This document shows positions 29,643 through 33,160 of a stretch of 48,243 bases of DNA, one piece after another. Position numbers and translations under genes: made by a program. Source of the stretch: Candidatus Latescibacterota bacterium (lineage in GTDB: Bacteria > Latescibacterota > UBA2968 > UBA8231); the NCBI GenBank assembly GCA_009691525.1, contig SICG01000007.1:1-48243 (forward strand). The letters are read 5' to 3'. Position 1 is the first letter of the stretch; each line of letters starts with the position of its first letter. The notes under the pieces are model-generated. The model did not search any database, was not told the DNA's origin, and saw nothing but the letters and a program-made list of their open reading frames with translations.

Positions 29643-30707
29643 ATGAGCGTATTCGATAAAGTGCGTCTGACCCAGCTGGCCAAACGGGCCGGTTGTGCTG
29701 CCAAACAGCCCCCCGGCTATCTGCTGCCCCTGTTGAAAAGTCTGCCGGTCATCACCGATCCCAGGGTGCTGGTGGGCAGCGCCACCGCCGACGACGCGGC
29801 GGTGTACCAACTCAGCGACGAACTGGCGCTGGTGCTGACCACGGATTTCTTCACCCCCATCGTCGACAATCCCTACGACTTTGGGGCGGTGGCAGCGGCC
29901 AACGCGCTGAGCGATGTGTACGCCATGGGCGGCAAACCGCTCACCGCCCTGAGCATCGTCGGTTTCCCGGATGCGGCGCTGCCCCCCGAGGTGTTAGTGG
30001 AGATTCTCCGGGGTGCCACCGACAAGGCAGCTGAGGCGGGCATCGCCATTGTCGGCGGCCATACCATCAAATCCGAGGAACCGATCTTCGGCCTGGCGGT
30101 GGTCGGCACCATCCATCCCGAGCGGGTGTTGTCTAATGACCGGGCTCAGCCAGGCGATCTGCTCATCCTCACCAAACCGCTGGGCCTGGGCATCATCACC
30201 ACCGCCGCCAAAAACGGGGAGGACCGGCTGGGGGCCATCGCCGAGGCGCTGAAAATCATGACCACCCTCAACCGGGCTGCCGCCGAGGTTATTTGCCAGT
30301 TTGATACCCACGCCCTGACCGATGTCACGGGTTTCGGGCTCCTGGGGCATTTGCGCAATATGGTGGCGGCCAGCAAGGTGAGTGCCTCCATCTATTTTGA
30401 GCGAGTGCCAGTGCTGGACGCTGCCCGCGTTTATGTGAAGGAGGGCGGGGCCCCAGGGGGCACCTACGCCAACCACCGTTTCCTGGCCGACTGGGTCAGC
30501 TATGCCCCGGACCTGGATCAGGACGAAGAGCTGCTGCTCTGCGATGCCCAGACCTCGGGTGGGTTGCTGGCTGCGGTGTCGGCTGCTCAGGCTGAAGGAG
30601 CGGTGAAGGCCCTGCACGAGGCGGGGGTTGCCCACGCGGCGGTGATCGGCAGTATCAGCGACGATCCGCCGGGCCGGATCTCGGTGGTGCGCCGGGGAGA
30701 TCCCTAG
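29643..30707 (+). CDS. selD: Selenide, water dikinase
   Basis: LTQLAKRAGCAAKQPPGYL (catalytic Cys region), DDAAVYQLSDELALVLTTDFFTPIVDNPYDFGAVAAANALSDVYAMGGKPLTAL, TDVTGFGLLGHL, DAQTSGGLL. Confidence 0.96.
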   Translation: MSVFDKVRLTQLAKRAGCAAKQPPGYLLPLLKSLPVITDPRVLVGSATADDAAVYQLSDELALVLTTDFFTPIVDNPYDFGAVAAANALSDVYAMGGKPLTALSIVGFPDAALPPEVLVEILRGATDKAAEAGIAIVGGHTIKSEEPIFGLAVVGTIHPERVLSNDRAQPGDLLILTKPLGLGIITTAAKNGEDRLGAIAEALKIMTTLNRAAAEVICQFDTHALTDVTGFGLLGHLRNMVAASKVSASIYFERVPVLDAARVYVKEGGAPGGTYANHRFLADWVSYAPDLDQDEELLLCDAQTSGGLLAAVSAAQAEGAVKALHEAGVAHAAVIGSISDDPPGRISVVRRGDP

Positions 30708-30717
30708 GGATTCTGCC

Positions 30718-30743
30718 GTGTCGGGGAGCGACCTGCTCCGGCC
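30718..30743 (+). repeat. REP-like 26-nt repeat, copy 1
   Basis: GTGTCGGGGAGCGACCTGCTCCGGCC; 21/26 identical to the reverse complement of 41800-41825; contains GGAGC-GACCT-GCTCC. Confidence 0.55.
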
Positions 30744-30917
30744 TTCCCCCAGGCGCGTCCTTGCTCACTTCGCTGGATTGTGTTTTCCTGGGGCGAGGTC
30801 CGCGGGGTGCCCGCTGCAGGCGTCTCTGCAGTCCCGGATCCGCGACACCATATAGATGGTGTCGCGCCCATCTCATCCCCTCCGCCCCCGCCACGCCCCA
30901 TACGTCGGGGCGTGGCG
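30725..30917. other. Six-hairpin array between selD and PhyH2 (candidate structured RNA, composite palindromic element or bidirectional terminator)
   Basis: Stems read directly: 30725-30729/30735-30739; 30747-30753/30787-30793; 30802-30806/30810-30814; 30814-30819/30826-30831; 30841-30851/30856-30866; 30889-30899/30907-30917. No recognisable protein in any frame. Confidence 0.65.
30841..30866. repeat. Covarying hairpin repeat, copy 1 (CGCGACACCAT-ATAG-ATGGTGTCGCG)
   Basis: Perfect 11-bp stem, 4-nt loop; matches copy 2 except for two compensatory pairs. Confidence 0.85.
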
Positions 30918-31032
30918 TCCCCTCGCTCCTTAAACTACGCTTCCCTACCCCACAACCCGGCGATCCTGCCCCCGGCCTCTCCCCCAGAGACTTCCTCCGG
31001 GGCACTCCTTCGGCCCTGGCCGGTTTCCGGGG

Positions 31033-31887
31033 TCATCTCCCCGCCGCTGGCTGCGGCCACAGGGCGGGAGGCAACCCTTCCTGGGTGTGGGGAGCGCGGT
31101 TGAGGGCGTTCACGGGCCAGCACTGGCCGCCCTGGAAATGGTACTCTTTTTCCAGGCCGCAGAGCCAGGTGAAGAGTTCGGCAGCGGCGATGCCATCCAT
31201 GAACTGCTCGAAAGGCGGGCGGCCGGCGCTGAGGCGAATCCACGAAAAATCGAAGGTCGGGTCAGCCAGCCAGTCGCGGCAGGGCGGTGCGGTGCGGCAG
31301 TAGTTGTATTTGAGCAGATTGCGCACCCCGGACCCGGTACTCTTGCTGCGGCGGTGCCAGATCGAGTACACGGTGAGGAAGATGGACCCGGCTGGCGCTG
31401 CGGTACGCACGGCGTGGCGGATGTGGTCGTAATGGGTCATGTAGTTGGCTTTGCTGCGCACGAAATGAGAGCCGGGGACCACCTCGGTGGGCCCCATCTC
31501 CTCGGGGGTGTCGGTGGGATAGTAGAAGACCTGTAGGTAGTCGAGGCGGCGGTGGTACACAGAGCCGCCGTCGCGGTGCCAGTTCTGGGCCGGGGCCGGG
31601 CAAGTGTTGCGGTGGTTGGCCATCATGCCCGGCAGGCGGAAGTGGGCCCCCAGCAGGGAGCGCACGGCCCCGCCGGCCAGGGGGTTTTTCAACACTGCCT
31701 CGACGAACCAGTCCTCGGCCAGGATCTGGTCCGGCTGCGGGCCGTTGCAGTGCTCCAGGAATTCCACGGTGCGCCGGTTGATCACCTCGGGCACCACGCC
31801 CGGCAGAACCAGGTACCCGTCGCGGCAGAAGTCCAGCACCTGCTGGTCGTTCAGAGTGGGGGGACAGTCGTGGGTGGCCGGCAGCAT
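31033..31887 (-). CDS. Phytanoyl-CoA dioxygenase (PhyH) family protein, copy 2
   Basis: LDFCRDGYLVLPGVVPEVINRR; HRDGGS Fe-binding HxD motif; MGPTEVVPGSHF; IWHRRSKSTGSGVRNLLKYNY. Confidence 0.93.
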   Translation of the reverse strand: MLPATHDCPPTLNDQQVLDFCRDGYLVLPGVVPEVINRRTVEFLEHCNGPQPDQILAEDWFVEAVLKNPLAGGAVRSLLGAHFRLPGMMANHRNTCPAPAQNWHRDGGSVYHRRLDYLQVFYYPTDTPEEMGPTEVVPGSHFVRSKANYMTHYDHIRHAVRTAAPAGSIFLTVYSIWHRRSKSTGSGVRNLLKYNYCRTAPPCRDWLADPTFDFSWIRLSAGRPPFEQFMDGIAAAELFTWLCGLEKEYHFQGGQCWPVNALNRAPHTQEGLPPALWPQPAAGR

Positions 31888-31891
31888 GGCA

Positions 31892-31918
31892 TTACCTCTC
31901 TAGGATAAACTCACAGCC
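31892..31918 (-). pseudogene. Nine-codon C-terminal remnant (GCEFILER-stop) of a third copy of the small protein encoded by A and B
   Basis: GGC TGT GAG TTT ATC CTA GAG AGG TAA aligns with GCEFILEKWT-stop (B) and GCEFILEKWS-stop (A); same 4-nt gap from stop to downstream PhyH start as at the A/PhyH1 junction. Confidence 0.72.
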
Positions 31919-31919
31919 C

Positions 31920-31945
31920 CGCAACGCCATATAGATGGCGTTGCG
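31920..31945. repeat. Covarying hairpin repeat, copy 2 (CGCAACGCCAT-ATAG-ATGGCGTTGCG)
   Basis: Perfect 11-bp stem, same ATAG loop as copy 1; directly abuts the GCEFILER remnant. Confidence 0.85.
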
Positions 31946-31961
31946 CGCCAGCAGAATCCTC

Positions 31962-32324
31962 TCAGGTCCATTTTTCTAGGATAAATTCGCAGCCCATCCC
32001 CACGGTCTGGTCTTCCTGCAAGAGCAGGGCCAGCTCGGGGAATTTGATCACCCGCCAACCGTTGGCCATGGCCTCCAGCACGGTCTGGTACGGCCACTGG
32101 GCGGGGTCGGGCGGCAACTCCTGCATCTTGCCCTCGGCGACCAGGGAAATCCCGATTACCTGGGAGCCCACCCCAGTGTTGCTTACTTGGAGGTAGAGCA
32201 GTTGCTGGGGGGGGCGTTTGCCTGCCATCTCCAAGGCTTGCACGAGGTCGGCTTCGGCCAGTTCGCCCCGCTGGAGTTTTTCCAGGCAGGTCTGAAGGTG
32301 CAGTCGCAGCGTATCCATACTCAT
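31962..32324 (-). CDS. Small protein of unknown family (B), PhyH-associated
   Basis: MSMDTLRLHLQTCLEKLQRGELAEADLV...NTGVGSQVIGISLVAEGKMQELPPDPAQWPYQTVLEAMANGWRVIKFPELALLLQEDQTVGMGCEFILEKWT; ATG overlaps the PhyH1 stop (ATGA). Confidence 0.8.
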   Translation of the reverse strand: MSMDTLRLHLQTCLEKLQRGELAEADLVQALEMAGKRPPQQLLYLQVSNTGVGSQVIGISLVAEGKMQELPPDPAQWPYQTVLEAMANGWRVIKFPELALLLQEDQTVGMGCEFILEKWT

Positions 32325-33160
32325 CTGGTGGCCAGGGCCGGAGGAAAGCCGTAGGGCAGGTCGTTGCGCTGGGCCGGCAGGGGCCAGCTTTGGCCGCCGG
32401 TGACCTGGTAGTTGTGGTGCTGACCGGCCAGCCAGCAGAACATCTCGGCCGTCGAATAACACTCGTGGAACTGCTCACCAAAGCCGGCGGCCGGGCCGCT
32501 GAAATTGGCGCGGGCCAGATCGAAATCCGGCTCCCTGACCCAGTCGCGGGCCGGGGCCGCGGTGCGCCAGTAGCAGTACTTGAGCATGTTGCGGATACCG
32601 CTGCCAGGGGCGGCGGTGGCCCGGTGCCAGATCCGGTACGCGGTGATGAAGATGGAGCCGGCCGGGGCCGAAGTGGAGGCGCTGCCGCGGATGCGCCCGT
32701 AGTGGGCCATGGCCCGCTGGGTGTTGGGCACCAGGTGGGAGCCGGGCACCACCTCGGTGGGGCCCATCTCCAGGGGGGTTTCCTGGGGGTAGTAGAACAC
32801 CTGAAGGTCGTTCAACTGTGGACCCCAACGCGAGCCGCCGTCCACGTGCCAGCCGCCCGTCATTTGGTGGGGGCACTGGCGGCGGTGGTTGCTCATTAGC
32901 ACCGGCAGCCCAAACCCTGGACCCAGGAGCGAGCGCACCGCTCCGGCCGCTGCGGGGTTGCAGACGACCTGGTCCTGGAACCAGTCGAAGTCGAGGATCG
33001 GGGTAGGCTCGTAATGGGTGTTGGTGTCCAGGTACTCAAAGGCGCGGCGGTTGATTTCTTCGGGGACCACTCCGGCCAGCAGCAGATAACCCTGCCGGCA
33101 GAATTCGAGCACCTGGGTGTCGGTGAGGGTGGGGGGGCAGTCGCAGGTCCGGCGGGACAT
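32321..33160 (-). CDS. Phytanoyl-CoA dioxygenase (PhyH) family protein, copy 1
   Basis: LEFCRQGYLLLAGVVPEEINRR; HVDGGS; MGPTEVVPGSHLV; IWHRATAAPGSGIRNMLKYCYWRTAAPARDW. Confidence 0.93.
   Translation of the reverse strand: MSRRTCDCPPTLTDTQVLEFCRQGYLLLAGVVPEEINRRAFEYLDTNTHYEPTPILDFDWFQDQVVCNPAAAGAVRSLLGPGFGLPVLMSNHRRQCPHQMTGGWHVDGGSRWGPQLNDLQVFYYPQETPLEMGPTEVVPGSHLVPNTQRAMAHYGRIRGSASTSAPAGSIFITAYRIWHRATAAPGSGIRNMLKYCYWRTAAPARDWVREPDFDLARANFSGPAAGFGEQFHECYSTAEMFCWLAGQHHNYQVTGGQSWPLPAQRNDLPYGFPPALATR

Follow-up and report, generated by a model that had tools for sequence, protein, structure and literature searches.

A genus-restricted family of mosaic palindromic repeats in Latescibacterota whose hairpin arms are probably matched mainly by concerted replacement

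Compensatory base changes are usually taken as the best proof that a structure is under selection. How far this argument carries is the question raised by two short hairpins in a window of 48,243 nt from Candidatus Latescibacterota bacterium (contig SICG01000007.1). Copy 1, CGCGACACCATATAGATGGTGTCGCG (CGCGACACCAT-ATAG-ATGGTGTCGCG, 30841-30866), and copy 2, CGCAACGCCATATAGATGGCGTTGCG (CGCAACGCCAT-ATAG-ATGGCGTTGCG, 31920-31945), each form a perfect 11-bp stem with an ATAG loop, and the four positions at which they differ make up two compensated pairs, as the original prediction had described. That prediction further regarded them as a two-copy repeat flanking the gene PhyH2. One copy does lie on each side of this gene, but the two are no matched pair: copy 1 is part of a 330-bp element that looks mobile and lies where the 3′ ends of selD and PhyH2 face each other, and copy 2 stands alone upstream of PhyH2, outside any TIR-bounded element. 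The class to which both belong is called H1 below and its sister class H2. The features of the locus are as follows.

29643..30707, plus strand: selD-like AIRS-fold gene (PF00586/PF02769), context upstream of the element
30718..31047, 330 bp: TIR-bounded mosaic element with H1 copy 1 and an H2 hairpin, starting 11 bp past the selD stop codon
30718..30752, plus strand: left TIR, GTGTCGGGGAGCGACC...GGCCTTCCCCC, consensus GCGtCGGGGAGcGACCCactccGGCCTTTCCC
30841..30866, no strand assigned: H1 hairpin copy 1, 11-bp perfect stem, ATAG loop, stem allele CGCGACA
30889..30917, no strand assigned: H2 sister hairpin, CGCCACGCCCC-ATACGTC-GGGGCGTGGCG, sharing its outer stem framework with H1
31022..31047, minus strand: right TIR (GCGGCGGGGAGATGACCCC on this strand), which supplies the PhyH2 stop codon
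31033..31887, minus strand: PhyH2, phytanoyl-CoA dioxygenase family gene (PF05721) between both hairpins, context outside the repeat
31920..31945, no strand assigned: H1 hairpin copy 2, stand-alone, 11-bp perfect stem, ATAG loop, stem allele CGCAACG

The repeat is far from limited to two copies. The 4.02-Mb assembly contains 28 copies of its 12-nt core CCATATAGATGG (CCAT-ATAG-ATGG) and none of a reversed-pattern control, an abundance far beyond chance. We compared five genomes of one genus, the source genome (G000) and four congeners (G001-G004); the congeners hold 6, 4, 24 and 24 cores (24 in G004), and other relatives remain at background level. Of 65 phylum genomes, the core extended by stem positions matched 5, all belonging to this genus, and none of the 60 others; core matches outside the genus have no extended stem around them. 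Clear copies were also found in public records, including Latescibacterota and Handelsmanbacteria assemblies, and the matches labelled ‘Gemmatimonas phototrophica’ MaH-09apr19-249 probably belong to this genus too, filed under a different name. In a few further public records (e.g. L114, L118), the core is surrounded by longer stems of unrelated sequence, which we take as chance.

The five genomes contain 84 distinct H1 core matches, 82 of which form four or more of the seven outer pairs of the stem; the commonest stems (CGCAACA, 19; CGCAGCA, 17; CGCAACG, 14; CGCGACA, 7) are all perfect. Many copies, covarying stems and a conserved ATAG loop thus define a family, as had been anticipated from the two hairpins, and the earlier impression that it matches no described one was borne out: Rfam 15 gave no match above the gathering score for the window and four element loci, and our literature search found no publication describing the H1/H2 repeat.

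Perfect hairpins with a stem of at least 10 bp number 105 in about 1.1 Mb of G000, a sample of stretches picked partly for holding H1 or H2 copies, whereas a first-order Markov control has 12. Among the 105, two families stand out, H1 with 20 and H2 with 33. The H2 core, CCCC-ATACGTT-GGGG, is more abundant than that of H1 and equally restricted to the genus. Both classes have the outer stem CGCNNCRCC in common and vary at the same stem positions, and nearly all loops on this framework, in stretches partly picked for H1/H2 content, are of the H1 or H2 class. Copies range from a few to more than 100 per genome. H1 and H2 therefore constitute a genus-specific, previously undescribed family of intergenic short palindromic repeats, a new abundant family in a phylum for which we found no such repeats described.

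Larger members are mosaics in which hairpins lie ~60 bp apart; others stand alone without TIRs. Aligned copies end sharply in imperfect TIRs about 30 bp long, GCGgCGGGGAGatGACCCC...GGCCTTTCCC and GCGtCGGGGAGcGACCCactccGGCCTTTCCC, the former also written GCGNCGGGGAG...GGCCTTTCCC. Elements with both ends span 128-273 bp, and the window element 330 bp. Folding of whole elements is strong (z = −6.1 as RNA, −6.8 as DNA), and both hairpins form in their single-strand folds. In G004 and G001, the orthologous junction of selD and PhyH lacks the window element. A second element has no counterpart at the orthologous locus of G002, G003 and G004, and G001 keeps a remnant of its end there; a third locus has an element at one and the same position in G003 and G002, in both cases minus the H1-H2 block; and at a fourth (L179 versus L214), G003 and G004 carry the entire element in opposite orientations with respect to the flanks on either side, which is what recombination between TIRs would produce. 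For the stand-alone hairpin at L294, no congener aligned beyond the gene end.

As a side observation, PhyH2 takes its final codons and its stop (...PAAGR*; 31033-31047) from the right TIR of the element. Beyond this point the sequence differs in G004 and G001, which lack the element, so the PhyH2 C-terminus was probably altered by the insertion.

Sampled copies in G000 are intergenic, with a bias to gene 3′ ends. The stretches of this genome contain 67 H1/H2 hairpins, and not one falls within a predicted gene, the calls coming from a simple codon-usage predictor, a cruder version of which called some copies genic, mostly through over-long starts. Of the 41 gaps they occupy, 14 are convergent, an enrichment over the 34 among all 281 gaps (odds ratio 5.7, p = 4e-5), and 3 are divergent, a depletion against the 77 among all 281 (odds ratio 0.18, p = 0.001).

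The covariation itself is real. Across 29 distinct H1 hairpins, a set including two orthologous variants, 94.0% of cells are paired versus 87.2% after shuffling, and both sides differ in 25 cells versus 8.0 in shuffles; none of 500 shuffles reached this count, a proportion that is not a true probability since copies share ancestry and the shuffle control overstates their independence. The changes fall mainly at pairs 4, 5 and 7 and take the form of a few block alleles in which both arms change together, whereas changes in the outer three pairs mostly disrupt pairing.

How such blocks behave is best seen in a fixed slot, gggaagtccgcgtgg-[hairpin]-ggggaagggtcttgggg, whose flanks are near-identical up to the hairpin edge. 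It holds five hairpin alleles (H1f-AACG seven times, H1f-AGCA four times, H1f-GACA once, H1r-AACG, whose loop is inverted, twice and H2-AACG twice), plus an H2 variant; H2 is thus able to fill a slot otherwise held by H1. In five contexts the loop is found either way round with respect to the flanks, at ratios of 17:1, 13:2, 4:2, 3:1 and 2:1. Template switching in replication is known to produce several compensatory changes at once together with inverted loops (PMC8794818), and arm homogenisation with spacer inversion (PMC8604942). Block stem alleles, inverted loops and five alleles in one slot are the marks that template switching or an exchange of hairpins leaves. Because block replacement and loop inversion can arise in this way without selection, compensation does not by itself prove selection here, and the original claim that independent substitutions give direct evidence for it is undercut. 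The resemblance to template-switch hairpin evolution has its bounds: that is a mutational process, whereas H1/H2 is a repeat family, and switching within one hairpin cannot yield the exchange of H1 and H2 loops seen in this family, so that replacement of H1 by H2 also requires exchange between elements.

From the block alleles, the inverted loops and the template-switch precedent we infer concerted replacement as the main cause. H1 and H2 are thus probably interchangeable hairpin modules of a genus-restricted, non-coding, BIME/MITE-like mosaic palindromic repeat whose arms are matched mainly by such replacement. The arms would be kept matching chiefly by template switching between them during replication and by the transfer of complete hairpins from one dispersed element to another, through copying or recombination. 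Perfect hairpins at the 3′ ends of genes would in addition be tolerated or mildly selected for. The elements themselves would spread as non-autonomous DNA via some enzyme; as neither a target-site duplication nor an autonomous partner was found, it is from presence and absence between congeners that we infer transposition. At gene ends, elements may be transcribed and act as putative 3′ mRNA hairpins. Against concerted replacement, conservation of the loop almost equals that of the stem, which mutation bias alone does not predict, and hairpin 2 keeps its pairing at a single site.

The latter case bears on the alternative that H1 and H2 are a selected functional structure, either a hairpin in the mRNA (3′-UTR or intercistronic) or a palindromic DNA site bound by protein, with compensation reflecting selection for pairing. 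Hairpin 2 is kept at one site in G000, G001, G002 and G004, the flanks in the three congeners being 79-91% identical to those of G000. In G002 it reads CGCCGGGCCAT-ATGG-ATGGCCCGGCG with three fully compensated pairs, and G001 has a CTAG loop. G004 shows two compensated pairs and one A-G mismatch, at the pair that is C-G in G002; this resembles the intermediate expected when a pair changes in two ordinary steps, in keeping with selection at that site. The significant covariation, the conserved loop and the strong bias to gene 3′ ends also speak for a selected structure. It has to contend, however, with block stem alleles and loop inversions in unchanged flanks and with presence and absence between congeners. 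No U-tract follows the hairpins, hence they are not intrinsic terminators (neither H1 hairpin is among the predicted ones), and Rfam gave no match. On balance we consider selection as the principal explanation unlikely. With more than 200 copies in five congeners, many of them in fixed flank slots, selection and template switching can be separated quantitatively, which makes the family a natural test of how far compensatory changes prove selection when loop inversion and block replacement, which template switching alone can make, accompany them.

The elements might instead be ordinary MITEs of a DDE transposon, in which only the TIRs matter and the hairpins are passive. Like MITEs and other small mobile bacterial repeats (PMC2229807), they are short and non-coding, with TIRs, sharp ends, internal palindromes and insertion presence/absence between relatives. 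What sets them apart is that the hairpins inside them are exchanged and flipped as whole units; nor was a parent transposon found in the 1.1 Mb of G000. Among 35 elements with both ends, direct repeats of at least 4 nt stay at the shuffled level and 3-nt repeats number 9 versus 4.7 expected, so no target-site duplication stands clearly above chance; those 1.1 Mb contain no autonomous element with strict TIRs, and hairpins also occur alone, without TIRs. An account in which the hairpins are mere passengers is accordingly improbable.

A bolder proposal makes the hairpin itself the mobile or exchangeable unit, with an enzyme or ssDNA pathway swapping and inverting cassettes in fixed slots without RAYT, GTAG tag or target duplication. 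We regard this as improbable; if true, hairpin-cassette exchange would be a system not described before.

BIMEs and REPs of E. coli and Pseudomonas (PMC2817692, PMC3116915) are the closest in appearance: they too are short, dispersed intergenic palindromes in tens to more than 100 copies, form pairs at fixed spacing, lie after genes, are avoided between divergent genes and often have differing neighbour stems. H1/H2 likewise are dispersed, many-copy intergenic palindromes. Neighbouring hairpins ~60 bp apart in G000-G004 share the same stem in 4 of 60 pairs versus 11.4 expected and differ in 56, the pairs not being independent of each other; this echoes the heterodimer preference reported for REPs (PMC3733652). 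Unlike BIMEs and REPs, H1/H2 show no GTAG tag or RAYT linkage, have two loop classes on one stem, are nested in TIR-bounded elements and belong to another phylum. GTAG lies within 12 nt of the foot in 2 of 84 H1 and 6 of 81 H2 copies. The RAYT-type transposase that the original prediction proposed to look for showed no linkage in these draft assemblies, as neither H1 nor H2 lies less than about 1.5 kb from any Y1_Tnp gene examined, and the hairpins at those inspected are of other kinds. In G002 (L234, 1804), an 18-bp perfect hairpin (acgcgcgatagtggagag-TAT) near a broken Y1_Tnp gene is unrelated to H1/H2. It is very improbable that a RAYT (Y1_Tnp HUH) transposase recognising the hairpin moves H1/H2 as REP/REPIN-type repeats: the dispersed palindromes, their pairs with differing stems, the lack of target duplication and Y1_Tnp genes in three of the five congeners would fit, but no such gene was found in G001 or G004 (draft assemblies, in which absence is not absolute), yet G004 has 24 H1 core matches, and the genes present elsewhere, like the GTAG tag, are not associated with the hairpins.

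CGTC-tagged palindromic repeats (PMC3733652) are likewise small hairpins without a dedicated transposase, and several of their families prefer heterodimers. They have CGTC at one foot, an 8-9-bp stem starting with A-T residues and a CCA tail, whereas H1/H2 stems are 11-12 bp, start with C-G and have no CCA tail. CGTC lies within 12 nt of the foot in 42 of 81 H2 copies and in 4 of 84 H1 copies; the latter figure, together with stems and flanks, rules out membership.

The surroundings of hairpin 2 offer a few further observations. The PhyH-family genes at 31033-31887 and 32321-33160, of which the second falls just short of the Pfam threshold, alternate with a small gene (ORF 31962-32462) that has no Pfam match, which suggests a tandem duplication of the gene pair. 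The end of the small gene encodes GCEFILEKW-stop, and a remnant of this gene end lies in the window between hairpin 2 and PhyH2 (compare 31920-32010). In G004 (L202; 2779, 2853, 2927), the gene end and the hairpin together make up a 74-bp unit in three tandem copies, the boundary of which is the hairpin edge.
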